DNA from: Mycolicibacterium chubuense
GTDB lineage: Bacteria > Actinomycetota > Actinomycetes > Mycobacteriales > Mycobacteriaceae
Direction: 5' to 3'
Length of the DNA stretch: 64,000 nucleotides
Assembly (NCBI RefSeq): GCF_001044255.1
Contig: NZ_JYNX01000033.1
Location: 31,860 to 95,859 of the forward strand
Shown: piece after piece, positions 9,425 through 54,220 of the stretch
Numbering within the stretch: position 1 is the first letter of the stretch
Layout of the letters: every line of letters starts with the position of its first letter
Position numbers and translations under genes: made by a program
Notes under the pieces: model-generated
What the model was told of the DNA's origin: nothing
The model's input: only the letters and a program-made list of their open reading frames with translations
Databases searched by the model: none

Positions 9425-9441
9425 TGGAAACTGCATTCTCA
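9425..9441. promoter_or_regulatory. Candidate operator A of the shared 17-bp palindrome family
   Basis: Sequence TGGAAACTGCATTCTCA: the right half-site matches the consensus ATTCTCA exactly, while the left matches 4 of 7. It lies 43 bp upstream of the aldehyde dehydrogenase start. The same left half, TGGAAAC, recurs in site F at 41931. An additional perfect inverted repeat GCGAAT-N5-ATTCGC follows at 9448-9464. Confidence 0.55.
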
Positions 9442-9589
9442 TCTTCGGCGAATCATACATTCGCGAGATGAGAACTCAAGAAAATGAGCGGAACGGTCCC
9501 TGCCTGCATCGAGCGGTGTGACAAACGCCGCGTGAACGTCTCATCAGTGCGAACAGTGTCGCGTCGATGTCTTGCGATGTGACGCTTGG

Positions 9590-9606
9590 CGAGAGTACGG
9601 TTCTCG
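9590..9606. promoter_or_regulatory. Candidate operator B of the shared palindrome family
   Basis: Sequence CGAGAGTACGGTTCTCG, an exact inverted repeat at its outer five bases (CGAGA/TCTCG) with the same 7-3-7 layout as the consensus TGAGAAT-N3-ATTCTCA (5 of 7 matches per half). It lies upstream of every plausible start of the plus-strand SDR gene, on the opposite side of the promoter gap from operator A. Confidence 0.5.
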
Positions 9607-9644
9607 CAATTGAAAGGATGATTCTTGATGGGTGTGTGTTGCGC

Positions 9645-10346
9645 GTGAAGAACGCTGTCGTCACCGGTGGCGCCTCGGGCATCGGAGCCGCCATCGCGGA
9701 CCGGTTGAGGGCGGACGGACTACAGGTCGCCACGATCGACCTGAACCCCGGCGAGGCGAAATTCGCCTATACCGCCGACGTCACCGACCGCACCGCCGTG
9801 GACGCGGCGCTGTCCGAGATCCGGGCGGATCTGGGACCGGTCACGGTCCTCGTCAACGCCGCCGGGCTGGATCGCTTCCGGCGATTCACCGAACTGACCT
9901 TCGAGGACTGGCAGAAAGTCATCGACGTCAATCTCAACGGCGTGTTCCACTGCACCCAAGCGGTGTTGCCCGACATGATCGAGGCCGGCTGGGGCCGCAT
10001 CGTGAACATCTCGTCGTCGAGCACGCACTCCGGCCAGCCCTTCATGGCGCCCTACGTGGCCGCCAAGTCGGCGGTCAACGGTCTGACCAAATCGCTGGCG
10101 CTCGAATACGGACCGTCCGGCATCACGGTGAACGCCGTTCCGCCCGGCTTCATCGACACACCGATGCTGCGCAAGGCCGAGGAACGCGGCTTCCTGGGGG
10201 ACACGCAGAAGCAGATCGAGGCCACGCCGGTTCGGCGCATCGGCCGTCCCGAAGACATCGCCGCCGCGTGCGCCTTCCTCATCTCCGAGGAGGCCGGTTA
10301 CATCACCGGCCAGATCCTCGGCGTCAACGGCGGCCGGAACACCTAG
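9645..10346 (+). CDS. Short-chain dehydrogenase/reductase (classical SDR)
   Basis: About 233 residues from a GTG at 9645. The N-terminal Rossmann motif TGGASGIG (residues 7-14) begins directly after this start, as expected for the family. GTG 9636 and ATG 9618 are in-frame alternatives; AAAGGAT at 9614-9620 is the only clear Shine-Dalgarno and does not settle the choice. The catalytic Tyr137-X3-Lys141 (YVAAK) with an upstream serine cluster and LVNAAG are present. Likely oxidises a secondary alcohol or reduces a ketone, for instance a 3-hydroxyacyl-CoA in beta-oxidation; the substrate is unknown. First gene of a plus-strand cluster with a second SDR, a ferredoxin and a P450. Confidence 0.85.
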   Translation: MKNAVVTGGASGIGAAIADRLRADGLQVATIDLNPGEAKFAYTADVTDRTAVDAALSEIRADLGPVTVLVNAAGLDRFRRFTELTFEDWQKVIDVNLNGVFHCTQAVLPDMIEAGWGRIVNISSSSTHSGQPFMAPYVAAKSAVNGLTKSLALEYGPSGITVNAVPPGFIDTPMLRKAEERGFLGDTQKQIEATPVRRIGRPEDIAAACAFLISEEAGYITGQILGVNGGRNT

Positions 10347-10363
10347 AAAGGATCGATGCGGAC

Positions 10364-11224
10364 ATGGGACGCGTCCAAGGAAAAATCGCCTTCATCACCG
10401 GGGCCGCGCGCGGACAGGGGCGCAGCCACGCCGTGCGACTGGCCGAAGAGGGCGCCGACATCATCGCCGTCGACCTGTGCGAGGACGTCGCGACCATCGG
10501 CTATCCGATGGCGACCCCCGAAGACCTCGACGAGACAGCGGCATTCGTCGAGAAGACCGGACAGCGCATCGTCACCGCCAAGGCCGACGTGCGCGACGCG
10601 GCCCAGCTGAGGAAGGCTCTCGAGGACGGTGTCGCCACGCTGGGCGGCCTGGACATCGTCGTCGCGCAGGCCGGAATCGCCGGGATGAAGGGCGATCCGC
10701 CGCTGCAGGCGTGGACCGATGTCATCAACACCAACCTGATCGGCACCATCAACGCGATCCAGGTGGCGCTCCCTCACCTCAAAGAGGGCGCCGCGATCGT
10801 GGCGACGGGTTCGACGGCGGCGCTGATGGACGCGCACAACAAGCCCAACCCCGGCGGCGATCCGGGCGGCATGGCCTACATGACCTCGAAAAGACTGCTC
10901 TCACAGTATGTTCACGATCTGGCGACCGAACTCGCAGTGCGCGGCATCCGGGCCAACGTCGTGCATCCGACGAACTGCAACACCGACATGCTGCAGAGCC
11001 CGCCGATGTACCGATCCTTCCGCCCGGATCTGGAGAACCCGACCCGCGCCGACGCCGAACCGGTGTTCGGCGTGCAGCAGGCGATGAAGGTCAACTTCAT
11101 CGAGCCCGAGGACATCAGCAACGCGATCCTGTGGCTGGTCTCCGACGAGGCCCGCTACGTCACCGGTATGCAGCTGCGCGTCGATGCCGGCGGCTATCTG
11201 AAGTGGTACGACTACCACGTCTGA
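10364..11224 (+). CDS. Mycofactocin-dependent SDR family oxidoreductase
   Basis: 286 residues. It opens with FITGAARGQGRSHA (about 10-23), the signature of the SDR subfamily associated with mycofactocin, whose NAD is not freely exchangeable and whose electrons leave through the mycofactocin redox cofactor. Catalytic Tyr172 and Lys176 (YMTSK) are present, and a glycine/proline-rich insert precedes them. Members oxidise alcohols such as carveol. The ATG at 10364 is 17 bp after the first SDR and keeps the subfamily N-terminus; an upstream in-frame extension has no family similarity. Ferredoxin and P450 genes follow, so the substrate may be a P450-made alcohol (inference). Confidence 0.9.
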   Translation: MGRVQGKIAFITGAARGQGRSHAVRLAEEGADIIAVDLCEDVATIGYPMATPEDLDETAAFVEKTGQRIVTAKADVRDAAQLRKALEDGVATLGGLDIVVAQAGIAGMKGDPPLQAWTDVINTNLIGTINAIQVALPHLKEGAAIVATGSTAALMDAHNKPNPGGDPGGMAYMTSKRLLSQYVHDLATELAVRGIRANVVHPTNCNTDMLQSPPMYRSFRPDLENPTRADAEPVFGVQQAMKVNFIEPEDISNAILWLVSDEARYVTGMQLRVDAGGYLKWYDYHV

Positions 11225-11236
11225 GGGAGGACACAC

Positions 11237-11431
11237 GTGAAGGTCTCGGTTGATTCCAGCCGGTGCCAGGGGCACACACTGTGCGCGATGATCGCACCGG
11301 ATGCCTTTGCGCTCAGCGACATCGACGGCACCGCCTCCCCGGTCAGCGAGGTGGTCGCCCCAGATCAGGAGGCCGCGGTGCGCGAGGCAGCGCAGTCGTG
11401 CCCCGAGCAAGCCATCACCCTCGCCGAGTGA
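11237..11431 (+). CDS. 3Fe-4S ferredoxin (P450 redox partner type)
   Basis: 64 residues starting at GTG 11237 behind the strong GAGGGAGG. Three cysteines, Cys10, Cys16 and Cys55 (followed by Pro), match the mycobacterial/streptomycete single 3Fe-4S ferredoxins, with His replacing the second Cys of a 4Fe-4S motif (CQGHTLC). Such ferredoxins pass single electrons to bacterial P450s. The P450 gene begins 41 bp downstream, so the two are very likely partners. No dedicated ferredoxin reductase of the usual FAD type is in this cluster. Confidence 0.93.
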   Translation: MKVSVDSSRCQGHTLCAMIAPDAFALSDIDGTASPVSEVVAPDQEAAVREAAQSCPEQAITLAE

Positions 11432-11472
11432 TTCCTCGCCGAGGGAGCCGAACAACCAGGGAGACAACAGCG

Positions 11473-12855
11473 TTGAGTGTCGACGACATTGCGGACGGCA
11501 TTGCGGACGGCACTGCGGACGACAGCCGCAGAAAACCGACGTACCACTTCGACCGGCACACACCGGAGTACCGCCTGCAGTTCGAGAAGATCACCGAGGA
11601 GATGCAGGCCAGGTGTCCGATGGCGTGGTCGGAGACCTACAACGGGCACTGGGTGGCTTCGGGCAGCAGGGAGGTCTTCGAGCTGGCCCGCTGCCCGGCC
11701 GTGTCCAACCATCACGACATCTCCGGTGAAACGCCGTACCAGGGCATCACGATTCCGAAGGCCAGCCGCGCCACGGTGGTGCGCGGGGGCATCTTGGAGA
11801 TGGACGAGCCCGAGCACAGCGCCTACCGCGGAGCCCTGAACCCGTACCTGTCGCCGGCGGCGATCAAGCGGTGGGAGCCGTTCATCCACGAGATCACCCG
11901 CGCCGCGCTCGATGAGCACATCGAATCCGGCCGGATCGATTTCGTCGACGACCTCGCCAACGTGGTGCCTGCGGTGTTCACCCTGGCGATGATGGGCATC
12001 GAGCTGAAGAAGTGGAACGTCTACAGCGAGCCCACGCATGCGTCGGTGTACACACCCGAGCACGCCCCGGAGCGCGAGAAGATCAACGAGCAGCACCGCG
12101 AGATGGGTATCGACCTCATCACCAACATGATGGAGATCCGGGAGAACCCACGGCCCGGACTGGTGAACGCGCTGCTGCAGTTGCGCATCGACGGCGAGCC
12201 CGCGCCCGACATCGAGATCCTGGGCAACCTCGGCCTCATCATCGGCGGCGGTTTCGACACGACCACCGCGCTCACCGCGCACGCCCTCGAATGGCTGGGC
12301 GAGCACCCCGCCGATCGCAACCGACTCAGCCGGGAGCGCGACACGCTGCTCGATCCGGCCACCGAGGAATTCCTGCGTTTCTTCACGCCCGCTCCCGGCG
12401 ACGGTCGGACCTTCTCCGAGGACGTCGAGGTCGAGGGTCACCAGTTCAAGAAGTTCGAGCGGCTCTGGCTGTCATGGGCGATGGCCAACCGGGACCCGTC
12501 GGTGTTCGACGAACCGAATACGGTGATCATGGACCGGAAGGGCAATCGGCACTTCAGTTTCGGCATCGGTGTGCACCGCTGCGTGGGATCTAACGTGGCA
12601 CGTACGGTGTTCAAGTCCATGCTGACCGCGGTGCTCGACCGCATGCCCGACTACGTGTGCGATCCCGAGGGCACCGTGCACTACGACACGATCGGCGTGA
12701 TCCAGGGCATGCGTCATCTGCCCGCGACGTTCACGCCCGGCCCCCGCGTGGGCCCGGGACTGAACGAGACCCTGGAGAAGCTGCAGCGCATCTGCGAAGA
12801 GCAGGAGCTGGCCCGTCCCATCACCGAGCGCAAAGAGGCCGCGGTCATCGACTGA
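11473..12855 (+). CDS. Cytochrome P450 with a repeat-bearing N-terminus
   Basis: 460 residues if the TTG at 11473 is the start; AGGGAG lies about 10 bp upstream. Heme-thiolate Cys370 sits in FSFGIGVHRCVG, the I-helix has GGGFDTTTA in place of the common AGxDTT, and the K-helix has EFLR (ExxR). The protein is longer than most bacterial P450s because of a 30-residue tail after the core and a leader with a threefold IADG-like repeat. It should be a soluble monooxygenase fed by the preceding ferredoxin. Substrate unknown. It ends 89 bp from the convergent acyl-CoA dehydrogenase with a hairpin between them. Confidence 0.9.
   Translation: MSVDDIADGIADGTADDSRRKPTYHFDRHTPEYRLQFEKITEEMQARCPMAWSETYNGHWVASGSREVFELARCPAVSNHHDISGETPYQGITIPKASRATVVRGGILEMDEPEHSAYRGALNPYLSPAAIKRWEPFIHEITRAALDEHIESGRIDFVDDLANVVPAVFTLAMMGIELKKWNVYSEPTHASVYTPEHAPEREKINEQHREMGIDLITNMMEIRENPRPGLVNALLQLRIDGEPAPDIEILGNLGLIIGGGFDTTTALTAHALEWLGEHPADRNRLSRERDTLLDPATEEFLRFFTPAPGDGRTFSEDVEVEGHQFKKFERLWLSWAMANRDPSVFDEPNTVIMDRKGNRHFSFGIGVHRCVGSNVARTVFKSMLTAVLDRMPDYVCDPEGTVHYDTIGVIQGMRHLPATFTPGPRVGPGLNETLEKLQRICEEQELARPITERKEAAVID
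11488..11523 (+). repeat. Three tandem 12-bp units inside the P450 leader
   Basis: Two perfect copies of ATTGCGGACGGC followed by a third with three changes (ACTGCGGACGAC). They keep the frame and encode IADG-IADG-TADD. The repeat lies before the conserved P450 fold, so copy-number changes would be tolerated. Confidence 0.85.
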
Positions 12856-12943: not shown

Positions 12944-14119
12944 TCAGCGGCGGGGCAACCCGAGCACCTGCTGGGCGATGATGTTGCGCTGGATCTCCGA
13001 CGTGCCGCCCGCGATGGTGCCACCGAAGCTGCGGGCGTACCGCTCGAACCAGCTCGCGAAGTAATGGTCGAGGTTCATGTGCGCGTAAGGTCCCGACGTC
13101 GCTGGATGGACGAGCCCGTCGGGACCGGCGGCCTCCAACGCGAGTCCCTCGACCCGTTGCTCGGCCTCGGCCCCCAGCAGCTTCGGAATCGACACCGACG
13201 CGACGTCCACCTCACCGCGAGCGGCCTTGGCGATACCCACGGATCCGAGCAGCCGCAACGCCTCGTAGTCCATGATGCTGGTGGCCAGCGCATCGCGTTC
13301 GAGGGGGGTCCTCGGCTCGAAATCGGCGATACAGTTGGCGATCCGGTCAGCAAAGCCCAGCCACATCATCGTGCGTTCGTGACCGAGCGAGCCGTTCGCG
13401 ACGCCCCACCCACCGTTGAGCGGACCGACGAGGTTCTCGACGGGCACGCGGACATCGGTGAAGAACACCTCGTTGAAGTCGAGGTTGTCCATTCCGCACA
13501 TGTCGGCGAACGGCCGGCACACCACGCCGTCGAGATCGGTCGGGATCAGCAACACGCTGATTCCCCTGTGCTTGACGGCATCCGGGTCGGTCCGGACGAA
13601 CGTGAGCAGAAAGTCGGCGTCATGGGCGCCGGAGGTCCACACCTTCTGGCCGTTCACCACGAAATGCTCGCCATCGCGAACGGCCCTGGTGCGCAACGAC
13701 GCCAGATCCGACCCGGCGCTGGGCTCGCTCATGCCCAGCGAGGCGGTGCGTTCGCCCCGCAGGACCGGCACCGCCCAGCGGTGCTTCTGGTCGTCGGTGC
13801 CGAATGTCAGCAGCGACGCAGCGATGATGTTGACGCCCTGGGGGTTGAAGCTGTGGTAGATCCGGCGCCGGCACAACTCCTCGGCGTGGACGAACGTCTG
13901 CAGCACAGAGGCATTGCGGCCACCGAACTCGGGCGGCTGGGCAGGCAGCAACCAGCCGTTGTCGAACAGCAGCCGCTGCCAGTCCCGTGCCCACTGCGGC
14001 ATGTGCGAGACCGAGCGCGGCCGCTCCACGGTCTGGGCGGCCGACGGGGTGTGCTCGTCGAGGAACGCGGAGAACTCCGCGCGGAACTCCTCGACGTCGG
14101 AGTCGAAGGCCAGCTGCAT
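12944..14119 (-). CDS. Acyl-CoA dehydrogenase, probable catalytic subunit of a FadE pair
   Basis: 391 residues with the complete three-domain fold. LGMSEPSAGSDL (about 128-139) is the flavin/substrate loop, Glu248 in GHERTMM is a candidate catalytic base at the position used by isovaleryl-CoA and long-chain dehydrogenases, and the C-terminus GGTSEIQRNIIAQQVLGLP is typical. It introduces an alpha-beta double bond into an acyl-CoA. The next upstream gene encodes a shorter, diverged paralogue ending 1 bp before this start. That arrangement matches the alpha2-beta2 FadE pairs of steroid catabolism (for example ChsE4-ChsE5), where only one subunit carries the base. Confidence 0.92.
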   Translation of the reverse strand: MQLAFDSDVEEFRAEFSAFLDEHTPSAAQTVERPRSVSHMPQWARDWQRLLFDNGWLLPAQPPEFGGRNASVLQTFVHAEELCRRRIYHSFNPQGVNIIAASLLTFGTDDQKHRWAVPVLRGERTASLGMSEPSAGSDLASLRTRAVRDGEHFVVNGQKVWTSGAHDADFLLTFVRTDPDAVKHRGISVLLIPTDLDGVVCRPFADMCGMDNLDFNEVFFTDVRVPVENLVGPLNGGWGVANGSLGHERTMMWLGFADRIANCIADFEPRTPLERDALATSIMDYEALRLLGSVGIAKAARGEVDVASVSIPKLLGAEAEQRVEGLALEAAGPDGLVHPATSGPYAHMNLDHYFASWFERYARSFGGTIAGGTSEIQRNIIAQQVLGLPRR

Positions 14120-15115
14120 CTAGAGATCCCTCCCGTATTCGTCGGCGATCATCGCCCGGTGCTCGGCGGCCCCGCCCAGCATCAACTCGCCGGCCTTCGC
14201 GCGCTTGAGCGCGAACTGCAGATCGTTCTCCCACGTGAAACCCATGGCTCCGAAAAGTTGTATGCCGTGGCGGAACACCAGCGACTGGCACTCCCCCGCC
14301 GACGCTTTGGCCATCGCGGCCGCGAGCCGCCTGCGCGGGTCGTCGGCGGCGATGGTCAACGCCGCGAAGTACATCAGCGCGCGTGCTCGCTCGATGGCGA
14401 CGAACATGTCGGTCGCCTTGTGCTGCACGGCCTGGAACGTGCCGATCGCGACACCGAACTGCTGGCGACTCTTCGCGTGTTCCACGACGAGGTCGAGGAC
14501 GCGCTGGCACGCCCCGACCATCGTGGCGGCCATGCCCATCAGCGCAAGGTGGCGGGCGCGCTCGGTGTCCGCCGTCAGCCGCTCGGTGTCGGCGACGTGG
14601 ACGCCCGGCAACGTCACCTCGGCTACGTGCAGCACCGGGTCGAAGACATCCACGCGGCGGGTGGTGACCTGCTCAGCATCGACGACGAAGACCCCGGCCG
14701 GGGTGAGGACGGCGAGGCGGTCTGCACGATCGCCGTCGAGGACGAACCGGTCCGTCCCGGTCAGCACCCACCCTTCGGCGTCGCGGACCGCGGTGACGCC
14801 CGAGTGCACCGCCGCACCCGCCCGATGTGGGTCGAAACGATCGCCGACCAGGGGGGCGAACTGCGTCAGGGTGGCCAGAAACGGTGTCGGATCGGTTGCG
14901 CGACCCATCTCCTCGAGCACGATCGCGAGCTCGACGGCATTGGCAGGGTCGGTCAACTCGGTCCAACCGGCGTCGCAGTAGCCGGCCCACAACGGCTCCG
15001 GATCGACGCCGTTCTCGGCGATCTCACGGATCAGCGTGGCAGGGCACTGCTTGGCGACCGCGTCGCGCACGGTCTCCTGCCACAGTCGTTGATCGGCGTC
15101 GAATTCCAGCAGCAT
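14120..15115 (-). CDS. Acyl-CoA dehydrogenase, diverged partner subunit
   Basis: 331 residues from the ATG at 15115, chosen over an ATG nine codons upstream because GGAGG precedes it at good spacing. The core is recognisable (RQQFGVAIGTFQAVQHKATDM, a flavin-contacting segment), but the normal TEPGxGSD loop and the C-terminal GTSEIQ are absent. It is therefore probably the non-catalytic half of a heterotetramer with the neighbouring dehydrogenase (inference from known FadE pairs). First gene of this two-gene unit; the perfect palindrome at 15144-15160 lies 28 bp upstream of the start. Confidence 0.9.
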   Translation of the reverse strand: MLLEFDADQRLWQETVRDAVAKQCPATLIREIAENGVDPEPLWAGYCDAGWTELTDPANAVELAIVLEEMGRATDPTPFLATLTQFAPLVGDRFDPHRAGAAVHSGVTAVRDAEGWVLTGTDRFVLDGDRADRLAVLTPAGVFVVDAEQVTTRRVDVFDPVLHVAEVTLPGVHVADTERLTADTERARHLALMGMAATMVGACQRVLDLVVEHAKSRQQFGVAIGTFQAVQHKATDMFVAIERARALMYFAALTIAADDPRRRLAAAMAKASAGECQSLVFRHGIQLFGAMGFTWENDLQFALKRAKAGELMLGGAAEHRAMIADEYGRDL

Positions 15116-15143: not shown

Positions 15144-15160
15144 TGAGAATATCATTCTCA
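15144..15160. promoter_or_regulatory. Operator C: perfect copy of the shared palindrome
   Basis: TGAGAATATCATTCTCA is a perfect inverted repeat TGAGAAT-N3-ATTCTCA. It lies 28 bp upstream of the acyl-CoA dehydrogenase start at 15115, the same distance seen for site E and the P450 at 28549. The spacing and symmetry fit a TetR-family dimer site overlapping a promoter. Confidence 0.75.
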
Positions 15161-15269: not shown

Positions 15270-15286
15270 TGAGAACATAATTCTTG
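15270..15286. promoter_or_regulatory. Operator D of the shared palindrome family
   Basis: TGAGAACATAATTCTTG matches the consensus at 6 of 7 left and 5 of 7 right positions. It lies 66 bp upstream of the plus-strand amidohydrolase start at 15353, so this divergent gap carries one site per direction. Confidence 0.65.
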
Positions 15287-15352: not shown

Positions 15353-16453
15353 GTGATCGATCTCAACGACGGCACGCAGACAGTCAGTGTCCCCGTGATC
15401 GATGCCAGCGTGCACATCTTCTTCGGGTCGAACAAGGACCTGCGGAAGAACTTCCTCCGCGAACCGTTCAGCAGCCGCGGCTTTCCCGATTACGAGATGG
15501 ACTGGTACGGCGCGCCGGGCGGCGAGTACGCCAAGGGCACGCAGGGCGCTGACGGACAGTACCCGGGCTCCGATGTCGCCACCGTCGCCGAGCACCTGTT
15601 CACCGACCGCGGGGTCGACGTCGCCGTGCTGCACCCGATGACGCGGGGCATCATGCCCGACCGGCATCTCGGCACCGCGATCGCGGCAGCGCACAACGAG
15701 ATGATGGTGACGCGGTGGCTGGAGCACGACGAGTACGGTGCCAGGTTCCGTGGCACGATCCGGGTGAATCCGGACGACATCACCGGCGCACTGCGCGAGA
15801 TCGAGAAGTACCGCGATCATCCGCGTGTCGTGCAGATCGGCATCCCCCTGCAGTCGCGAGAACTGTACGGAAAGCCGCAGTACTGGCCGCTCTGGGAGGC
15901 CGCCGTCGACGCAGGGCTACCGGTGGCGGTGCACATCGAGGTCGGTAACGGGATCATGTTGTCCCCCACACCGTCTGGAGCAGCGCGCACCTACGAGCAG
16001 TACCTCGGTTTCATGTCGCTCAACTACCTGTATCACCTGATGAACATGATCGCCGAAGGCGTGTTCGAGCGATACGACGGCCTGAAGATGGTGTGGGCCG
16101 ACGGGGCGGCGGACATGCTGACGCCGTTCATGTGGCGGATGGACTGCTTCGGCCGCCCCCATCTCGAGCAGACCCCCTGGGCGCCGAAGATGCCGAGTGA
16201 CTACCTGTCCGAGCACACGTATTTCATCTCCAGCGGTCTGGACGGCCCCGGTGACGTCGAGTACGCCGGCGAGTGGCTCGACTTCACCGGCAAGGACCGG
16301 ATGACGATGTTCGGCTCCAGCTACCCGCACTGGAACATGCACCAGCCGACGTCCGCGTCGGCCTTGACCGGCGAACAACGGATGCGGCTCTGCTGGCGCA
16401 ATGCCGCCGAGCTGTACGGCATCGACATCACAGCCGACGCGCTCGCGCAGTAG
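15353..16453 (+). CDS. Amidohydrolase-2 (ACMSD-like) family protein, degenerate metal site
   Basis: 366 residues from a GTG at 15353. The TIM-barrel metal-dependent hydrolase family (Amidohydro_2) is recognisable by the N-terminal VIDASVH and C-terminal SSYPHW. In the three other members in this window the corresponding motifs are D-x-H and DYPH. Here the first Asp is Ser19 and the last is Ser323, so metal binding is probably weakened. Family members decarboxylate or hydrolyse C-C bonds in ring-cleavage products. The intact paralogue follows 26 bp downstream, which suggests the two chains assemble together (inference). Confidence 0.88.
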   Translation: MIDLNDGTQTVSVPVIDASVHIFFGSNKDLRKNFLREPFSSRGFPDYEMDWYGAPGGEYAKGTQGADGQYPGSDVATVAEHLFTDRGVDVAVLHPMTRGIMPDRHLGTAIAAAHNEMMVTRWLEHDEYGARFRGTIRVNPDDITGALREIEKYRDHPRVVQIGIPLQSRELYGKPQYWPLWEAAVDAGLPVAVHIEVGNGIMLSPTPSGAARTYEQYLGFMSLNYLYHLMNMIAEGVFERYDGLKMVWADGAADMLTPFMWRMDCFGRPHLEQTPWAPKMPSDYLSEHTYFISSGLDGPGDVEYAGEWLDFTGKDRMTMFGSSYPHWNMHQPTSASALTGEQRMRLCWRNAAELYGIDITADALAQ

Positions 16454-16479
16454 GCAGTGGCAGGACAAGGAGGCTTCCC

Positions 16480-17634
16480 ATGACGGTAACGGCCGGCACG
16501 CAGGCCCGGGACCGCGTCCCCCCGACCGAACGCATCGCCGTGCGGTGCGTCGACTCCGACGTGCACCCGATGCCGCGCCGCGGGGAGCTCGTCGACTACA
16601 TCCCCGAGCCCTGGCGCAGCCGGTACTTCCTGTCCCACCCGCGCGGGGAAGCGATCTATTACGACGCCCCCGACTATGCGCACTCCTACGCGATGCGGGT
16701 GGACTCTTTCCCGCCCGACGGGGAGTTCGCCTGCAGCGACCCTGATCTGGCGCTCAAGCAGCTGATCATGGAGGCCGGCTCGGATATCGCGATCCTCGAG
16801 CCGACGCATGGCGAGATGCGGCTGCCCGAGGCCACCCACGCCATGTGCGTGGCCACCAACCAGTGGCTGGCCAACCACTGGCTGGACCCGCACAACAACT
16901 GGCACGAGCGGTGGCGCGGTTCGATCTGCGTCGCGATCGAGGAGCCGGCGCTGGCCGCCGCGGAGATCGAGAAGTGGGCCGGCCACCCCTACATGGCGCA
17001 GGTCCTGATCAAGGCGGAGCCGCGCCCGTCGTGGGGAGATCCGCGCTACGACGCGATCTGGGCCACCGCGGTCAAACACGACATCACCGTCAGCTGCCAC
17101 CTGTCTCGCGGCTACTACGAGACGCTGCCGTTCCCGCCGGTCGGTATCCCGAGCTACAACCACGATTTCATGGTCACCTACTCGCTTCTGGCGGCCAACC
17201 AGGTGATGAGCCTGATCTTCGACGGTGTGTTCGACCGGTTCCCCACGCTGCGCATCGTGTTCGTCGAGCACGCCTTCACGTGGATCCTGCCGCTGATGTG
17301 GCGGATGGACGCGATCTACGAGAAGCGCAAGCGCTGGGTCGACATCAAACGCAAGCCCAGTGAGTACGTGAAGGACCACATCAAGTTCACCACCCAGCCG
17401 CTGGACTATCCCGAGGACAAGACGGAACTCACCCGGGCGCTGGAGTGGATGGAGTGCGAGAAGATCCTGCTGTTCTCCAGCGACTATCCGCACTGGACGT
17501 TCGACGATCCGCGCTGGCTGGTCAAACACCTGCCCGAGCACGCCCGCGAAGCGGTGATGTTCCGCAACGGCATCGCGACCTACAAGCTGCCGGACACGGT
17601 GCCGGTGCTCGAGGGCCAGGTTCGGGTCTTCTAG
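16480..17634 (+). CDS. Amidohydrolase-2 (ACMSD-like) metal-dependent hydrolase
   Basis: 384 residues; the ATG at 16480 follows AAGGAGG. Metal-binding signatures look intact: Asp27-x-His29 (DSDVHPM) near the N-terminus, the barrel histidine in TVSCHLSRG, a VFVEHAF strand, and Asp335 in SSDYPHW. The family includes decarboxylases and C-C hydrolases of aromatic and alicyclic catabolism (ACMSD, LigW/LigY-like). Its stop abuts the GTG of the Rieske gene, so the two are coupled. The substrate is unknown; a partnership with the degenerate upstream paralogue is likely. Confidence 0.9.
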   Translation: MTVTAGTQARDRVPPTERIAVRCVDSDVHPMPRRGELVDYIPEPWRSRYFLSHPRGEAIYYDAPDYAHSYAMRVDSFPPDGEFACSDPDLALKQLIMEAGSDIAILEPTHGEMRLPEATHAMCVATNQWLANHWLDPHNNWHERWRGSICVAIEEPALAAAEIEKWAGHPYMAQVLIKAEPRPSWGDPRYDAIWATAVKHDITVSCHLSRGYYETLPFPPVGIPSYNHDFMVTYSLLAANQVMSLIFDGVFDRFPTLRIVFVEHAFTWILPLMWRMDAIYEKRKRWVDIKRKPSEYVKDHIKFTTQPLDYPEDKTELTRALEWMECEKILLFSSDYPHWTFDDPRWLVKHLPEHAREAVMFRNGIATYKLPDTVPVLEGQVRVF

Positions 17635-18027
17635 GTGACCGAGGCACAGAAATCGCCCCGGCTGGCCCAGGGGCGTGAACACGTGGTCGCGACCGTCGAC
17701 GAGATCCCACCCGGCACACACAAGCTCGTGCCGATCGGCCGTCACGGGGTGGGCGTCTACAACGTCAAGGGCACCTTCTACGCGATTGCCAACTACTGTC
17801 CGCACGAAGGCGGTCCGCTGTGCTCCGGTCGGGCACGGGGCCGCACGATCGTCGACGAGGACGTGCCCGGTGACGCCGTGATGGTCCGCGACAAGGAGTT
17901 CATCTACTGCCCCTGGCACCAGTGGGGTTTCGAGCTCGCGACCGGCACCACGGCGGTCAAACCCGAGTGGAGCATCCGCACCTATCCGGTACGGGTGGTC
18001 GGTAACGATGTGCTGGTGCAGGCATGA
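17635..18027 (+). CDS. Small Rieske 2Fe-2S protein
   Basis: 130 residues, one Rieske domain. Cluster ligands are Cys55-x-His57 (YCPHEGG) and Cys92-x2-His95 (CPWHQWGF), the standard pair. There is no catalytic oxygenase domain, so this is a Rieske-type ferredoxin or an electron-transfer subunit. It may serve a P450 or the Rieske oxygenase at 42669. GTG start directly after the amidohydrolase TAG; its end overlaps the following alpha/beta hydrolase by 4 bp. A 17-residue insertion between the ligand pairs (RARGRTIVDEDVPGDAV) is longer than in most Rieske ferredoxins. Confidence 0.93.
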   Translation: MTEAQKSPRLAQGREHVVATVDEIPPGTHKLVPIGRHGVGVYNVKGTFYAIANYCPHEGGPLCSGRARGRTIVDEDVPGDAVMVRDKEFIYCPWHQWGFELATGTTAVKPEWSIRTYPVRVVGNDVLVQA

Positions 18028-45557: not shown

Positions 45558-45969
45558 GGATCTGGTCGAGATCCAGCAGCTCCTCGCCAAGTACGCCGTC
45601 ACCATCACCCAGGGTGACATCGACGGGTTGGTCGAGGTCTTCACGCCGGACGGGACCTACAGCGCATTCGGTGAGACCTACACGCTCAACAGGTTCCCGG
45701 TTCTGGTCGACGCGGCGCCCAAGGGTCTCTTCATGACCGGCACCGCGCTCGTCGACCTCGTCGAAGGCGCCGACGGTGCGACCGGAACCCAACCGTTGTG
45801 CTTCGTCGAGCACAGCACACACGACATGCGCATCGGCTACTACAACGACACCTATGTCCGCACCGACGACGGGTGGCGGCTGCGCACCCGGGCGATGACG
45901 TTCATCCGGCGCAACGGCGACCACGACTCCGGACGCCCGCACGCGATCGGGAGGCCCGAAGCGGGATGA
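45538..45969 (+). CDS. SnoaL-like (NTF2-fold) protein
   Basis: 143 residues. EIQQLLAKYAVTITQGDIDGLVEVFTPDGTYSAF is split over the typical start of the SnoaL/NTF2 fold, a cone-shaped small domain. Members act as polyketide cyclases, ketosteroid isomerases, dehydratases, or ring-hydroxylating dioxygenase small subunits. It may thus serve as an isomerase or as the missing small subunit of the oxygenase (inference). A 20-bp overlap with the amidohydrolase and ATGA overlap with the next dehydrogenase place it inside the operon. Confidence 0.85.
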   Translation: MTPTRTEDLVEIQQLLAKYAVTITQGDIDGLVEVFTPDGTYSAFGETYTLNRFPVLVDAAPKGLFMTGTALVDLVEGADGATGTQPLCFVEHSTHDMRIGYYNDTYVRTDDGWRLRTRAMTFIRRNGDHDSGRPHAIGRPEAG

Positions 45970-47087
45970 ACGACCTCCACGATCCGGCGACGTTCCGGAC
46001 GCACCTGGTGGCGTGGCTGAGCGAGAACGATCTGAGCCCGGCCGACGACCATTCACTCGACGGACACCTACGCCAGTTCGCCCGGGTGCAGCGCGCCCTG
46101 TACGACGCCGGGTGGAACCGCTACGGCTGGCCCGAGCACGCCGGCGGACTCGGCGGCCCCGCCATCCTGCGCGCCATCGTCGGCGAGGAGGTGGTGGGCC
46201 GTCGGCTGGTCGAGCCGGGACCCTATTCGATGCTCGACGTGCTGGCGCCGACCATGATCGACTACGCCTCCCCCGCGCTCGCCGCCGAGATGGTGCCCAA
46301 GTTGCTCAGCGGAGAAGAGATGTGGTGCCAAGGGTTTTCAGAACCTGGGTCGGGAAGCGATCTCGCGTCGCTGACCACTCGCGCCGCACCGCGTGGGGAC
46401 GACTGGATCGTCAACGGCCAGAAGGTGTGGACGAGCTTCGCGCAGTTCTCCCGCCGGTGCGTACTACTCACCCGGACCGGCGGTCCGGATGTGCCGAACC
46501 ACGAGGCCATCACCGCGTTCTTCGTCGACCTCGACACCCCGGGGATCACCATACGTCCGCTGCGCACCATGCACGGCGTCGACGAATTCTGCGAGGTCTA
46601 CTTCGACGACGTCGTCGTGGACCCCAGCCGGATGCTGGGCGCACCCGGCGACGGCTGGCGGCTGGCGATGGATCTGCTTCCCTACGAACGCTCCACCTGC
46701 TTCTGGCAGCGCATCGCCTACCTGTACTCACGGTTCGACGCGTTGATCGCCGAGGTGAAGGCGCAGGGTCAGGCCGTGGACTCGGACATGGGTGAGACGT
46801 ATCTGGCGCTGCACACCCTGCGCTGCCGGTCGAGGGCCACCCAGCACCGGCTCGCCGCCGGGCACAAACTCGGACCCGACACCTCGGTGGACAAGGTGCT
46901 GCTGGCCACTGCCGAGCAGCGGCTCTACGACACCGCACGCGATCTGCTCCCGGGTGTCGTCGAGCTCGACGACACCCCCTGGCGCACCGAGTATCTGTAC
47001 TCGCGCGCGGCCACCATCTACGGCGGCACGGCCGAAGTGCAGCGCAACATCATCGCGCGCCGTCTGCTCGATCTCGGCAAGGAGTGA
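45966..47087 (+). CDS. Acyl-CoA dehydrogenase, probable catalytic subunit of a second pair
   Basis: 373 residues. FSEPGSGSDL (124-133) is the flavin loop, Glu241 in LPYERST is a candidate base, and the C-terminus reads YGGTAEVQRNIIARRL, all close to the FadE pair subunit at 12944. It is followed 2 bp later by a shorter, diverged dehydrogenase. Together they repeat the pair design of steroid-type heterotetrameric dehydrogenases. Placed after oxygenase and hydrolase genes, it would handle the CoA ester of their product (inference). Confidence 0.92.
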   Translation: MNDLHDPATFRTHLVAWLSENDLSPADDHSLDGHLRQFARVQRALYDAGWNRYGWPEHAGGLGGPAILRAIVGEEVVGRRLVEPGPYSMLDVLAPTMIDYASPALAAEMVPKLLSGEEMWCQGFSEPGSGSDLASLTTRAAPRGDDWIVNGQKVWTSFAQFSRRCVLLTRTGGPDVPNHEAITAFFVDLDTPGITIRPLRTMHGVDEFCEVYFDDVVVDPSRMLGAPGDGWRLAMDLLPYERSTCFWQRIAYLYSRFDALIAEVKAQGQAVDSDMGETYLALHTLRCRSRATQHRLAAGHKLGPDTSVDKVLLATAEQRLYDTARDLLPGVVELDDTPWRTEYLYSRAATIYGGTAEVQRNIIARRLLDLGKE

Positions 47088-47089
47088 CC

Positions 47090-47914
47090 ATGACCACCGG
47101 AATCGACGACGCGCTGGACCGCGAGTCACTCGACATGCTGGAGGCCGCGCTGCGCACGACCATGCTGTCGGCGTCGGGCCCGAAGCTCGACGCCGGCCTG
47201 GCGGAACTGGGCTGGGCCGACATGCTCACGGACACGCCGGAGGTCGCGGTGCCGCTGGTGTTCCGGCTCCTCGGCGAAACGGGCACGCACGCCTCGGTAC
47301 TCGTCGACGTCGTGCTGCATGCCACCGGCAACACGATCGGCGACACCGTCGAACTGCCCCTGCCGTACGCCGGTAACACGTGGGTGGTGTGGGACCGCAT
47401 CAGCCCGGCCACCGCCGAGCCGACACTGGGCGGTCTGCCGTTGCGTCGTGAGGAGGAGGGCTATCCGATCCGGCTGGCCGAGGCACGGGTGGCAGTGGGC
47501 TGGTGGCTGGTGGGCTCCGCGCGGGCGATGGTGGCGCTGGCTCGGCGGCACGCGCTGGACCGGGTCCAGTTCGGCAAACCGATCGCCGGCTTCCAGGCGG
47601 TCCGGCACCGGCTGGCCGAAACGCTCGTGGCCATCGAGGGCGCCGAGGCGACGTTGAGCCTGCCCGCCGTGGACAACCCCGATCTGACCGCGCTGCTCGC
47701 CAAGGCGGCCGCGGGCAAGGCGGCACTGATCGCCGCGAAGAACTGTCAGCAGGTGCTCGGCGGCATCGGCTTCACCGCCGAACACGAGCTGCACCATCAC
47801 GTCGAGCGGGTGCTGGTGCTGGACGGATTACTGGGCAGCTCACGGGAACTCACCCGCCGGGCCGGCGCAGGCCTGCGGGCCCGCGGTTCGGCACCGCGCC
47901 TGGCCGACCTCTAG
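47090..47914 (+). CDS. Acyl-CoA dehydrogenase, diverged partner subunit
   Basis: 274 residues, short for the family. A flavin-contacting segment DRVQFGKPIAGFQAVRHRL and a GGIGFTAEHELHHHV stretch remain, but the flavin loop and terminal GTSEIQ are absent. It matches the role of the non-catalytic subunit in a heterotetramer with the dehydrogenase at 45966. ATG 47090 follows AAGGAG at normal spacing. Convergent with the hydratase, overlapping by 4 bp. Confidence 0.88.
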   Translation: MTTGIDDALDRESLDMLEAALRTTMLSASGPKLDAGLAELGWADMLTDTPEVAVPLVFRLLGETGTHASVLVDVVLHATGNTIGDTVELPLPYAGNTWVVWDRISPATAEPTLGGLPLRREEEGYPIRLAEARVAVGWWLVGSARAMVALARRHALDRVQFGKPIAGFQAVRHRLAETLVAIEGAEATLSLPAVDNPDLTALLAKAAAGKAALIAAKNCQQVLGGIGFTAEHELHHHVERVLVLDGLLGSSRELTRRAGAGLRARGSAPRLADL

Positions 47915-48693
47915 GTGATGTTGGCCTTCATGTGCTCGAGATCCACCAGCACCGGCCATCCCCCGACACTGAGCGCGTTGCCGTGCCCGGTCTGGTGGAT
48001 GTCGAACACCGACTGGATCGCGGCGTAGAAGCCCTGCACGTCCAGCGTCTGGTTCACCGCGCGCTTGGCCTGCCGCAGCCCGAACGGCGGCATCTTCGCG
48101 ATCTGTTCGGCCAGCGCCCAGGTCTGGCTGTCGAGCTCGGCGCGGGGCACCACCTTGTTCACCATGCCGGTGGCCAGCACCTCCTCGGCCGTCATCGCAC
48201 GTCCGGTGAACAGAATCTCCTTGGCCTTGCGCGGCCCCAATTCCCACGTGTGCCCGTGGTATTCGACACCCCCGATACCCATCAGGACCACCGGATCGGA
48301 GAACTGCGCGTCGTCGGCCGCGACGATCAGATCGCAGGGCCAGCACAGCAGCAGACCCCCCGAGATGCAGCGGCCCTGCACCGCAGCGATCGACGGCTTC
48401 GGAACATTGCGCCAGCGCAAGGTGTATTCGAGGTAGCGTCGCGCCTCGTGCTCGATGATGAACTCCAACGTGATCTTGTCCGGCACCGGTCCGCCGCCAC
48501 GCAGATCGTGACCCGCGGAGAAGTGTTTGCCGTTGGCGCGCAGCACGATCACCGCGACGCCTGGATCCTGGGCCGCCCGCGTCCATGCTGCATCGAGTTC
48601 GTCGAGCAGCTCGGGGTTCTGCGCGTTGGCCGCCTCGGGCCGGTTCAAGGTGATCGTCGCAATGGTGTCGGTCACGTCGTAGTCGATGTACAT
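47911..48693 (-). CDS. Enoyl-CoA hydratase/isomerase family protein
   Basis: 260 residues. KHFSAGHDL forms the oxyanion-hole motif, and VQGRCISGGLLLCWPCDLIVAADDAQF the second. The second catalytic glutamate is probably displaced (MGIGGVEYHGH), so hydration activity is uncertain and another crotonase-type reaction is possible. Single-gene unit that reads away from site H and the TetR gene; it is the most direct target of that divergent promoter. Confidence 0.9.
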   Translation of the reverse strand: MYIDYDVTDTIATITLNRPEAANAQNPELLDELDAAWTRAAQDPGVAVIVLRANGKHFSAGHDLRGGGPVPDKITLEFIIEHEARRYLEYTLRWRNVPKPSIAAVQGRCISGGLLLCWPCDLIVAADDAQFSDPVVLMGIGGVEYHGHTWELGPRKAKEILFTGRAMTAEEVLATGMVNKVVPRAELDSQTWALAEQIAKMPPFGLRQAKRAVNQTLDVQGFYAAIQSVFDIHQTGHGNALSVGGWPVLVDLEHMKANIT

Positions 48694-48760: not shown

Positions 48761-48777
48761 TGAGAATACTATTCTCG
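48761..48777. promoter_or_regulatory. Operator H beside the TetR gene at 48833
   Basis: TGAGAATACTATTCTCG matches the consensus at all but one base. It sits 67 bp from the hydratase start and 55 bp from the TetR start, in a 139-bp divergent gap. Location next to the regulator suggests autoregulation and makes this TetR protein the best candidate to bind the whole palindrome family. Confidence 0.75.
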
Positions 48778-48832
48778 TGGTGAGGAAGTTACAATCTCTG
48801 ACACGTCGGCCGAGAGGGGGTCCTAGACCGCT

Positions 48833-49552
48833 ATGTCACGGCGTTCTCCGGTACAGTCAGTTCATGTTCTTCCCAGTCGGCCTGCGTCTGAGCCGCCGGT
48901 GACCAGCGCCAGCGAGGAGCCGGCCTGGAAGCAGCGGGCGGTCGAGCGTTCGATCAAAACCGCCAAGTTGCGCGCCGCTCAGCGGGTCCAACGATTCCTC
49001 GACGCCGCACAGGCGATCATCATCGAGAAGGGCAGCACCGACTTCACGGTGCAGGAGGTCGTCGACCGCTCCCGCCAGTCGTTGCGCAGCTTCTATCTCC
49101 AGTTCGACGGCAAGCACGAACTCCTGCTCGCGCTCTTCGAAGACGCGCTGAGCCGTTCGGCGGAACAGATCCGCGCCGCGACCGCCGGCCAGGAGGATCC
49201 CCTCGAGCGGCTCAAAGTGGCGATCTCCCTGCTGTTCGAGTCCTCGCGACCCGATCCGGCCGCCAAGCGGCCGCTCTTCACCGATTTCGCTCCGCGACTG
49301 CTGGTGTCCCACCCCTCCGAGGTCAAGGTCGCCCATGCGCCGCTTCTGGCGCTCCTGACCGAGTTGATGGAGGATGCCGGAGCCGCGGGCCTGCTTCGCG
49401 ACGGTGTCAACCCCAAGCGCATGGCGGCCATCACCATGCAGACCGTGATGTTCGTCGCCCAGTCGAGCGGGGACGTCGGCGAGGGCGCCGCGCACCCGAT
49501 CACGGCCGACGAGGTGTGGGACTTCTGCGCCCACGGCTTCGCCGCCGACTGA
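48833..49552 (+). CDS. TetR-family regulator, candidate master regulator of the window
   Basis: 239 residues, with a 45-residue basic leader before the helix-turn-helix (about 68-90, FTVQEVVDRSRQSLRSFYLQF). The C-terminal domain is of ordinary length. A GTG at 48899 would shorten the leader. It stands alone and divergent from the hydratase gene, with a strong palindrome copy between them. Eight further sites of this family upstream of pathway genes suggest that it represses or activates them in response to a pathway CoA thioester or acid (inference). Confidence 0.92.
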   Translation: MSRRSPVQSVHVLPSRPASEPPVTSASEEPAWKQRAVERSIKTAKLRAAQRVQRFLDAAQAIIIEKGSTDFTVQEVVDRSRQSLRSFYLQFDGKHELLLALFEDALSRSAEQIRAATAGQEDPLERLKVAISLLFESSRPDPAAKRPLFTDFAPRLLVSHPSEVKVAHAPLLALLTELMEDAGAAGLLRDGVNPKRMAAITMQTVMFVAQSSGDVGEGAAHPITADEVWDFCAHGFAAD

Positions 49553-51886: not shown

Positions 51887-51930
51887 CCGCGGCGGCGAAT
51901 CGGCGTTGATCATGACGCCCGAGTGGTTGC

Positions 51931-53373
51931 ATGTCTTCCATGAAGCGCCTCAACGGCATGGACGCCATGTTGTTGTACAGCGAGACACCGAATCTGCACA
52001 CGCACACGCTGAAGGTCGCCGTCATCGACGCCGCGGACTACGACGGCGACTACGGATTCGAGGCGTTCCGGCGCACCGTCGCCCGGCGACTTCATCTGCT
52101 GGAACCGTTGCGCTACCGCCTCGTCGACATCCCGTGGCGGCTGCATCATCCGATGTGGTTGCAGGACTGCCCGGTCGATCTCGACTACCACCTGCGCCGT
52201 GTGCGCGTGCCTGCGCCCGGCGGTCGGCGCGAACTCGACCGGGTGATCGGCGAGATCGCCAGCACGCCGCTGGACCGCAGCCGGCCGCTGTGGGAGTTCC
52301 ATTTCGCCGAGGGGATGGCTGCGAAGCGCTTCGCGCTCATCGGCAAGGTCCATCACACACTCGCCGACGGTGTCGCCTCGGCGAATCTGCTTGCGCGGCT
52401 GATGGATCTGGCCGGACCTGCCCAGGACGAGCGCGACGAGCCTCCGCAGAGCTGTGAGGCGCCGTCGGCAGGGCAACTGCTCTGGGAGGCGCAGCTCGAC
52501 CACATTCACAACATGGCCCGACTACCCGGACTGGTTGCCGACGCCGCCCGCGGTGTCGCGCGGCTGCGTCAGCGAACCCGGGATCGCCGCGACGATCCCG
52601 ACCTCGCCAAGCCTTTCAACGCGCCGTCGACCTTTCTCAATCATGTGGTCTCGCCGGTGCGCACCTTCGCCACCGCCACAGTGTCGCTCGCCGAGGTGAA
52701 GGAGACGGCCAGGACGCTGTCGGTGACGTTCAACGACGTCGTGCTGTCCGTCGCGGCGGGCGGCCTGCGGGAGCTGTTGCTGCGCTATGACGGTCACGCG
52801 GATCGCCCCATCATGGCGACGGTGCCCGTCGCCACCGACAAGTCCACCGAGAGGGTCACCGGCAACGAGATCGGCGGCATGATGGTCTCCCTGCCGGTGC
52901 ACGTCGCGGATCCGCTGCGGCGCGTCGAGCTCACCTCCGTGGCCAGCACGCGCGCCAAGGAGGTGAACGACCTGCTGGGTCCCACGCTGCAGGGCCGGAT
53001 GCTCGAGTACCTGCCACCACCGTTGGCGCCGGCACTGTTTCGCGCGCAGTCCACGCGTGCCGACCACAACCGGCTGATGAACGTGGCGATCTCGAACGTG
53101 CCCGGACCGCGGCAACGCGGCCACATCGGCGGCGCGCCGGTCAGCGAGATCTATTCGGTCGGCGTGCTGTCGGCCGGCAGCGCCTTCAACATGACGGTGT
53201 GGAGTTATGTCGATCAACTCGATATCGCTGTGCTCTCCGACGACTCGACCTTCACCGACCCGCACGAGGCGACCGACGCGATGGTGCACGCCTTCGGCGA
53301 CCTGCGTCGGGCCTGCGGACTGACGCCGCCGAGGAGCGTCGCAACCGCGATGCCGCCGGCGACCGTCGGCTGA
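51931..53373 (+). CDS. Wax ester synthase/diacylglycerol acyltransferase (WS/DGAT)
   Basis: 480 residues, the normal length for the mycobacterial Tgs family. The active-site motif HHTLADG (His141, His142, Asp146) is intact, and later NVAISNVPGPRQ is the second family signature. It esterifies acyl-CoA to diacylglycerol or alcohols to make storage lipid. A start at ATG 51940 is equally possible. Its neighbour on the other strand is a glycerolipid-type acyltransferase, so lipid storage may be tied to the pathway (inference). Confidence 0.92.
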   Translation: MSSMKRLNGMDAMLLYSETPNLHTHTLKVAVIDAADYDGDYGFEAFRRTVARRLHLLEPLRYRLVDIPWRLHHPMWLQDCPVDLDYHLRRVRVPAPGGRRELDRVIGEIASTPLDRSRPLWEFHFAEGMAAKRFALIGKVHHTLADGVASANLLARLMDLAGPAQDERDEPPQSCEAPSAGQLLWEAQLDHIHNMARLPGLVADAARGVARLRQRTRDRRDDPDLAKPFNAPSTFLNHVVSPVRTFATATVSLAEVKETARTLSVTFNDVVLSVAAGGLRELLLRYDGHADRPIMATVPVATDKSTERVTGNEIGGMMVSLPVHVADPLRRVELTSVASTRAKEVNDLLGPTLQGRMLEYLPPPLAPALFRAQSTRADHNRLMNVAISNVPGPRQRGHIGGAPVSEIYSVGVLSAGSAFNMTVWSYVDQLDIAVLSDDSTFTDPHEATDAMVHAFGDLRRACGLTPPRSVATAMPPATVG

Positions 53374-53378
53374 GCCGG

Positions 53379-54176
53379 TCAGCCGAGGATCGGGAAGCGC
53401 CGCTCGCGCGCCAACTCGTCGAGCGCCGCCTGCATCACCGCCCGCACGTGCAGGTCGACCTCGTCGATGTTCGGATCGTCGCCGAACTCCGCCGCGACGT
53501 CGATGGGTGTCAGCACGCGCGTGACGATCTTCGACGGCAGAGGGATGTTGGGCGGGAAGATCACCGAGAGACCGAACGGGAACCCGATGCTCACGGGCAG
53601 GATCTCCATCCGTGCACGGGTCAGGCCGATCCGGCGGGCGATGCCGTCGCCGCGCGCCAGGAACATCTGGGTTTCCTGCGCACCGATCGAGACCACCGGC
53701 ACGATCGGAACGCCCGCTTCGATCGCGGTGCGTGCATAGCCGGTCCGGCCGGCGAAGTCGACCACGTTGGCGGTCGAGGTCGGGCGGTAGGAGTCGTAGT
53801 CGCCGCCGGGGAAGACGAGCACGATCGCGCCGGAACGCAGTGCCTTGGCGGCGTTCTCACGACTGGCCTCGATGACGCCGGCACGCCGCAGGACATCGCC
53901 GAGCGGACCGAGGAAGACGCCGTAGTGCGCCAGGGTGTACAACGGGCGTTCGAAGCCGAACCGCTTGTAGAACTCCGGCGCGAAGACCAGGACATCGGGC
54001 GTGAGCATGCCGCCGGAGTGATTCGAGACCACGAGCGCGCCACCGGTGGCGGGCATCGCCTCCAGCCCGCGGACTTCGGCACGGAAGTATCGTTTGATCA
54101 GCGGCGCCACCCGCGCCGTGATCTGCCGGGCGAGTGCCGGATCCCACTTGGCCGTCTCGGCCTGCTCCTCGGCCAT
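53379..54176 (-). CDS. PlsC-type lysophospholipid/glycerolipid acyltransferase
   Basis: 265 residues. The acyltransferase motif NHSGGMLTPD has His53 and Asp61, spaced as in the TMEM68/DGAT-like branch rather than NHX4D. FPGGDYDSYRP is the glycerol-3-phosphate-like binding motif. ATG 54176 is preferred, because an ATG 13 codons upstream overlaps site I and lacks a ribosome-binding site. Reads divergently from the epimerase gene and convergent with the WS/DGAT gene, 5 bp apart. Confidence 0.88.
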   Translation of the reverse strand: MAEEQAETAKWDPALARQITARVAPLIKRYFRAEVRGLEAMPATGGALVVSNHSGGMLTPDVLVFAPEFYKRFGFERPLYTLAHYGVFLGPLGDVLRRAGVIEASRENAAKALRSGAIVLVFPGGDYDSYRPTSTANVVDFAGRTGYARTAIEAGVPIVPVVSIGAQETQMFLARGDGIARRIGLTRARMEILPVSIGFPFGLSVIFPPNIPLPSKIVTRVLTPIDVAAEFGDDPNIDEVDLHVRAVMQAALDELARERRFPILG

Positions 54177-54203
54177 TGTTCCGGAGATGCTACTCTCGCT
54201 TTC

Positions 54204-54220
54204 GGAGAATGTCATATTCG
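54204..54220. promoter_or_regulatory. Candidate operator I of the shared palindrome family
   Basis: GGAGAATGTCATATTCG retains GAGAAT on the left but matches the right half poorly (ATATTCG). It also fits AAT-N5-ATT as at 9448-9464. It lies 18 bp before the epimerase start and 27 bp from the acyltransferase start, the position expected for a divergent operator. Confidence 0.4.

Follow-up and report, generated by a model that had tools for sequence, protein, structure and literature searches.

Introduction

KstR is a TetR-type repressor that is encoded in a large catabolic region, controls its own gene, recognizes short palindromic operators, and has an Mce import operon among its targets. The KstR box has an AACnnGTT core and the KstR2 box a CAAGnnCTTG core, both of which differ from GAGAAT-N3-ATTCTC, the palindrome analyzed here. 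This palindrome recurs in a 64,000-bp stretch of Mycolicibacterium chubuense DNA, hereafter the window, which comprises bases 31860–95859 of contig C33 (NZ_JYNX01000033.1; 113,465 bp, 1.9% of the 5.95-Mb host genome). A window coordinate equals the C33 coordinate minus 31,859. We consider it likely that the palindrome is the operator of g082, a TetR-family regulator encoded in the same catabolic island (48833–49552, plus strand), and that g082 represses the promoters of the island.

An earlier note on this DNA had proposed a regulon of at least nine sites with the consensus TGAGAAT-N3-ATTCTCA and had named the TetR at 48833 as a candidate regulator. It had also described the motif as unlike those of KstR and KstR2, and this difference holds. 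The closest published idea that we found is the motif X regulon of Rv0767c.

The palindrome marks the promoters of one island

All nine sequences of the earlier note are present in the window at the coordinates given there. As described there, the site at 15144 matches TGAGAAT-N3-ATTCTCA perfectly, and those at 28578, 42089, and 48761 carry one mismatch each. The weaker sites have three (15270 and 9425) and four mismatches (9590 and 54204); 41931 is missing from the places with up to four and, by our own count, has five. Six matches with up to three mismatches were found in the window compared to 0.60 expected, a number reached in none of 100 shuffles.

The whole genome was scanned with the mismatch pattern TGAGAAY-N3-RTTCTCA. 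With at most one mismatch, six of six places were on C33, and with at most two, 12 of 25. Twelve of the 13 two-mismatch places off C33 were intragenic; the exception, C6:28977, is located in a divergent gap between ferredoxin-like and acyl-CoA synthetase-like genes (both named by eye). Since a matching site in the relative G054 lies ~10 kb beyond the g106/g107 operator, contig C6 probably adjoins C33. C33 itself was scanned with a weight matrix trained on the six best sites, using 20 first-order Markov sequences as background and 112 genes predicted by a simple, crude custom caller, whose calls give the g-numbers used here. Twelve matches of at least 14 bits were observed compared to 0.45 expected, and ten of them were intergenic, the intergenic share of the contig being 4.3%. 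The remaining two are C33:111802, in the low-scoring open reading frame (ORF) g110 just before g111, and C33:105249, in g105. By the kind of matrix check suggested in the earlier note, the sites fall at gene starts within a single island, and intergenic gaps elsewhere in the genome hardly ever carry the pattern.

The predicted operators of the window lie upstream of catabolic operons. The strongest is the operator of g043, the first gene of an acyl-CoA dehydrogenase operon (15144–15160, C33:47003; 29.4 bits), and across the same g043/g044 gap is that of g044, of an amidohydrolase operon (15270–15286, C33:47129; 18.8 bits), with a similar site before g044 in the relatives G054 and G004. The operator of the CYP150A-type P450 gene g059 is at 28578–28594 (C33:60437; 26.4 bits). 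The distance to the start codon was said to be identical, 28 bp, at 15144 and 28578, and this is exact on our gene calls. The g073/g074 gap contains a site at 42089–42105 (C33:73948; 25.3 bits), and the gap between g081 and the TetR gene one at 48761–48777 (C33:80620; 27.9 bits), which is predicted to be autoregulatory. The g037/g038 gap carries two sites, one for the mce operon side and the g038 side (9590–9606, C33:41449; 15.0 bits) and one proximal to g037 (9425–9441, C33:41284; 13.3 bits), the latter appearing as a TGAGAATGAAATTTCCA-type site in some relatives (e.g., loci L230 and L239). By eye, five of the eight divergent gene pairs in the window have a strong or conserved site, one pair including a doubtful 45-aa ORF. 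Beyond the window, we predicted further operators at C33:13100 (g008), 15906 (g010), 24506 (g021), 107781 (g106/g107), and 111802 (g111), and at C6:28977.

The TetR gene g082 and the predicted operator at its promoter

The g082 protein contains an N-terminal helix-turn-helix, matched at residues 56–101 by the Pfam model TetR_N (PF00440; 30.9 bits, cutoff 24). It missed the cutoffs of all listed NCBIfam models, the best being ScbR (39.2 bits versus 150), and nothing close was found in PDB (best 33.6 bits). The named relatives are mycobacterial, and the nearest include those of M. parafortuitum, M. iranicum, and M. pyrenivorans. When the named loci were examined, taken as the best 80 of the 407 relatives found, the palindrome was located 71–80 bp upstream of the TetR gene in 80 of 80, as an own-promoter operator would be. 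Positions 2–8 and 10–16 of this site are invariant in 81 sequences, and its mean identity was 0.95 compared to 0.73 in the surroundings.

We then compared 198 Mycobacterium genomes, including the host, counting the TetR as present when a match to g082 reached an E-value of 1e-40 or better. The TetR was detected in 163 genomes; 15 genomes without it were identified by subtraction, which leaves the totals consistent, at 179 genomes with a site and 163 with the TetR out of 198. At least three sites with up to one mismatch were found in 154 of the 163 genomes with the TetR versus two of the 35 without it (Fisher P 6e-27), with means of 6.08 and 0.77 sites per genome, respectively. In 40 genomes from the same order but outside the genus, the mean was 0.4 sites. 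Five genomes that have the TetR and few strict sites were also inspected, and in two of these the operator persists next to the TetR gene. In G179, g081 has been lost, but a 23.3-bit operator still precedes the TetR gene and a second one precedes g074. In G056, a 22.9-bit operator is kept before the TetR gene in a 12-kb stretch without g081, and no match to g107, g043, g037, or g059 was found in this genome at the cutoffs used. From the own-promoter site and this co-occurrence, the TetR at 48833 emerges as the best candidate regulator.

The host also encodes a paralogous TetR with 37% identity to g082 (L130:9101-9739, contig C88), which is located beside amidohydrolase-like and acyl-CoA dehydrogenase-like genes and possibly governs a second, related local regulon.

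Conservation at orthologous promoters

Five proteins were each traced to their 30 best-matching loci, the host locus among them, and an upstream site of at least 14 bits was sought there. Such a site was present at 30 of 30 loci for the TetR, g043, and g037, at 29 of 30 for g107/g106, and at 25 of 30 for g059; equal-sized in-gene controls gave 0 of 150, even at 12 bits. Among named loci, we counted those whose ortholog was at least 55% identical and had sufficient sequence upstream. In these, a site of at least 14 bits precedes g074 in 48 of 48, g073 in 59 of 63, and the P450 gene g083, downstream of the TetR gene, in 29 of 50. Stretches of the relatives G054, G020, and G004 contained 30 sites of at least 17 bits, 29 of them outside called genes. 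These mostly precede orthologs of the host target genes, and a few lie elsewhere; in G004, for instance, genes resembling g083 and g057 are preceded by one. In most of the loci that were checked, predicted operators again precede the operons for mce, CYP150A, acyl-CoA dehydrogenases, and ring cleavage, so that the sites recur at orthologous promoters in related genomes. The shuffles, the genome-wide restriction to the island, and the conservation together rule out chance palindromes.

Conservation also separated the weaker sites. The 9590/9425 pair is conserved as a promoter, the best-scoring site upstream of g037 alternating across loci between the two positions. The element near g073 at 41931–41947, a recurring TGAGAAGATAGTTTCCT-type sequence, is doubtful: a match of at least 10 bits occurs in 27 of 63 loci, supporting a degenerate operator-like element only. 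The weakest sequence, 54204–54220 (g086/g087; 10.6 bits), is probably no site, since at least 12 bits was reached in 14 of 42 loci and at least 14 bits in eight of 42, which does not support it. Because it scores below an intragenic match at 53577 (11.3 bits), the statement that no site of this quality lies inside genes also fails for it.

Predicted paired operators

The next-best matrix match within 60 bp was determined for each of our own sites of at least 13 bits. In nine of the 13, this second copy was exactly 21 or 22 bp away (chance ~2e-10), a feature that the earlier note had not contained. The exceptions were C33:13100, 47003, 80620 (best at 23 bp, second at 22 bp), and 105249. Among genus contexts with less than 70% flank identity, the second copy was at 21 or 22 bp in 101 of 184, orthologous promoters of different species being counted apart and the contexts hence not independent, and every other distance occurred at most seven times. 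Shuffling the flanks 20 times gave no distance more than seven times, compared to the 48 and 45 seen.

The second copies are weaker than the main operators. They are located 21 bp from 28578 (28599–28615; 11.8 bits), 21 bp from 42089 (42068–42084; 9.2 bits; a conserved GTGGAAATCT element), and 21 bp from 9590 (9611–9627; 8.8 bits), whereas the perfect site at 15144 has no notable second copy in the host. At the TetR promoter, a degenerate second operator lies 22 bp from 48761 (48783–48799; 3.9 bits; conserved AAGTTACAATCTC), and a slightly higher score, 4.9 bits, is reached at −23 bp. This copy contains TACAAT (48790–48795), by eye a likely −10 box, so that the operator pair covers the TetR promoter. 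The spacing suggests that two dimers may sit on each such promoter, adjacent to each other on the same DNA face, although a different partner protein may instead occupy the second copy. The 21/22-bp pairs provide a precise prediction of how the protein sits on DNA.

Proposed regulation by g082 and alternative regulators

The computations give the operators, where they lie, how they are conserved, how they pair at 21/22 bp, and that they go together with the TetR gene; from these results we infer binding, repression, occupancy by two dimers, and release by a ligand. The g082 protein would bind the palindrome as a dimer, and at many promoters a second dimer would bind the degenerate copy 21–22 bp (two DNA turns) away, thereby covering the promoter. 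In this way, g082 may keep its own promoter and about ten other promoter regions repressed, which would affect up to 69 genes on C33 if each same-strand run is a single operon. Release of the TetR would follow once an intermediate of the pathway appears, probably the acyl-CoA of a substrate that resembles a polycyclic terpenoid or a steroid.

Several observations weigh against this mechanism. The island gene g107 is present in 150 of the 163 genomes with g082 versus one of the 35 without it; in most genomes the TetR and the island are retained or missing as a unit, and therefore the 198-genome correlation alone leaves binding by the TetR and mere presence of the island inseparable. Two genomes have sites and no detected TetR ortholog, namely G188 (seven sites; 93% complete, 700 contigs) and G196 (three sites). 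Conversely, three of five eroded genomes (G026, G103, and G129) keep the TetR with no operator of at least 14 bits nearby. In G056, the operator-holding gap is flanked also by a second, g019-like TetR (59%), and because the operator lies between both TetRs, it could belong to either. One off-island intragenic match (L013) reaches 20.3 bits. The choice of repression over activation comes from the habit of the family and from the operator position. As a separate observation, several fragmented gene calls of the island surround the kept TetR gene in G129 (L297), apparently a decaying island.

Another regulator of the island, e.g., the IclR-type g107 (so named by eye) or the TetRs g061 or g019, might bind the palindromes, which we regard as unlikely. 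The g107 gene adjoins the operator at C33:107781 and occurs in 151 of the 198 genomes. The 13 genomes with g082 and without g107 average 4.7 sites, and six of them have only 0–2; however, the other seven have 5–10 sites, and the g107 operator (29 of 30 loci) is in the gap common to g106, whereas g082 alone was shown to have an own-promoter operator in 80 of 80 loci. The neighboring TetR gene g061 follows the operator at 28578 with one gene between, but it is present in only 71 of the 198 genomes and is dispensable for many sites: the 92 genomes with g082 and without g061 still average 5.6 sites. This phyletic pattern rules out g061 as the binder. Regarding g019, the arrangement in G056 speaks for it, but in the host no match of at least 6.2 bits was found at the g019 promoter among the 40 top matches listed. 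Among the regulators encoded in the island, the cross-genome comparison of presence covered g082, g061, and g107.

It is very improbable that a regulator coded elsewhere binds the sites, with the TetR gene merely one of its targets. The three eroded genomes that keep the TetR and lack a strong nearby site would fit this, as would the two of 35 genomes with at least three sites and no TetR; yet all host places with up to one mismatch are within the island, and the number of sites tracks the presence of the TetR across the 198 genomes. Hardly credible, finally, is an identity of the palindromes with the Rv0767c or motif X phytosterol-induced regulon of Mycobacterium sp. VKM Ac-1817D. The TetR taken as the Rv0767c-type one of the host, by its place beside an Rv0768-family aldehyde dehydrogenase gene (Rv0767c itself lies beside Rv0768), is on contig C20, and its similarity to g082 was not significant (E 2.4). 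TetRs on contigs C88, C60, and C14 were considered as the Rv0767c ortholog and were set aside as not being beside an Rv0768-type gene. The gap at the C20 TetR carries palindromes of the type GGACA-N2-TGTCC, which agree with the enrichment for GAC and GTC at Rv0767c sites given in excerpts of PMC10312376. In its favor, excerpts of PMC6593523 describe a motif X regulon of 14 operons that likewise has a palindrome, a TetR, and several P450s. The TetR, its locus, and the C20 palindrome led us to reject the identity as far as the text description of motif X reaches. Regulation by the island's own g082 is the reading that we retain.

Predicted target operons

Same-strand gene runs with gaps of at most 120 bp, excluding g029 and g110, were taken as operons. 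If each run is one operon, 69 genes on C33 lie downstream of an operator, which is an upper-bound style of count. On the minus strand, the likely target operon g037–g030 (387–9381) encodes an aldehyde dehydrogenase, a CoA transferase, OB-fold and thiolase proteins, two MlaE permeases, and MCE proteins (g031 by eye). A single N at C33:31859, one base before the window start, is where the overlapping mce calls g028 and g029 meet, and is probably an assembly ambiguity. On the other side of the gap, g038–g041 (9636–12855, plus strand) encode two short-chain dehydrogenases, a ferredoxin, and a P450. The g043–g042 operon (12944–15115, minus strand) encodes acyl-CoA dehydrogenases, and g044–g047 (15353–18935, plus strand) encode two amidohydrolase-family proteins, a Rieske-domain protein, and one protein without a Pfam match. 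Further likely targets are g059–g057 (26785–28549, minus strand), which encode a CYP150A-type P450 (512 bits to CYP150A6), a ferredoxin (by eye), and a DUF1330 protein.

The divergent operons g073–g068 (34925–41862, minus strand) and g074–g080 (42126–47914, plus strand) are the next likely targets. The former encodes a DitZ-like amidohydrolase, acyl-CoA dehydrogenases, a CoA transferase, an enoyl-CoA hydratase, and a thiolase. The latter encodes a CMD-family protein, a Rieske oxygenase alpha subunit, an amidohydrolase, and a SnoaL-like protein; g076 had no Pfam match, and g079–g080 are acyl-CoA dehydrogenase-like by eye. The likely target gene g081 (47911–48693, minus strand) encodes an enoyl-CoA hydratase of the PRK08290 subfamily (393.6 bits, cutoff 280). 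Outside the window, C33 at 102.5–110.3 kb encodes KstD-like flavoproteins, a 3-carboxyethylcatechol dioxygenase, an MhpA-type hydroxylase, an alpha/beta hydrolase, and the IclR-type regulator (by eye). Of these likely targets, the dioxygenase reached 532.9 bits (cutoff 291) and the hydroxylase 1068 bits (cutoff 853). A KstD-like flavoprotein matched a subfamily model with 1096 bits but fell short of the named KstD cutoffs, and the alpha/beta hydrolase of this ring-cleavage set is related to HsaD and PcaD. When a plasmid collection was compared with one 24-kb part of the window, two records gave matches, which were short (1–2% of the query).

The nearest PDB chain to the g073 amidohydrolase (40567–41862) was named DitZ by its depositors (378 bits) and was followed by PtmU3, which g044 and g010 also match. 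We take 'dit' to denote diterpenoid degradation, and PtmU3 presumably acts on diterpenoid CoA esters. For M. marinum CYP150A5, excerpts of PMC6237146 report the conversion of beta-ionone to 4-hydroxy-beta-ionone. Based on the target enzymes, the DitZ/PtmU3 likeness of g073, and this CYP150A5 chemistry, our guess is that the substrate is polycyclic terpenoid or steroid-like, which is the weakest step of the interpretation.

Comparison with known systems

No paper naming this operator or regulator was found among the matches listed, which in several searches were a small part of all matching papers, in a coverage that leaves out most subscription journals. As judged from sequence, the regulon of a TetR-type repressor encoded in the island is probably real and undescribed. 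Like the motif X regulon in the excerpts of PMC6593523, it comprises a TetR, a palindrome, and P450-rich targets, all sequence-predicted in both cases; it differs in that the Rv0767c-type TetR is at another host locus (C20) with a GGACA-type palindrome and is not orthologous to g082. PMC4482099 gives its TetR motifs as logos. The P450-ferredoxin cluster of M. marinum, containing CYP150A5, CYP190A3, and CYP188A3 in the excerpts of PMC6237146, resembles the window in having CYP150A P450s beside ferredoxin genes, g059 being close to CYP150A6. In contrast, the terms TetR and mce are absent from the main text of that paper. We infer that this cluster is the same island in M. marinum.

The predicted programme would place an Mce importer, several P450s, Rieske enzymes, ring-cleavage enzymes, and enzymes of acyl-CoA metabolism under one regulator. 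It is conceivable, although rather less than probable, that g082 governs, as master regulator, a large catabolic programme that would be the third under TetR control in mycobacteria, beside those of KstR and KstR2. Such a programme would serve to take up and degrade polycyclic terpenoids, most Mycobacterium species would have retained it and some would have lost it, and g082 would bind as two dimers on paired operators two DNA turns apart. This would explain how several unassigned mycobacterial P450s such as CYP150A are controlled, the CYP150 family being among the most numerous mycobacterial P450 families according to excerpts of PMC5018878. Knowing the regulator and its operator makes the question of the substrate testable through what releases the TetR.

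As with KstR and KstR2, the predicted TetR regulon is located in a large catabolic region, has a palindrome at the promoter of its regulator, and includes an Mce operon as a target. However, g082 does not match KstR, scoring 19.7 bits to the KstR equivalog model (cutoff 280), and is not closely related to KstR2, with 16.5 bits (E about 0.06) to the KstR2 PDB chains. The operators of the island are further distinguished from those of KstR and KstR2 by the sequence GAGAAT-N3-ATTCTC and by the frequent second operators at 21 or 22 bp.

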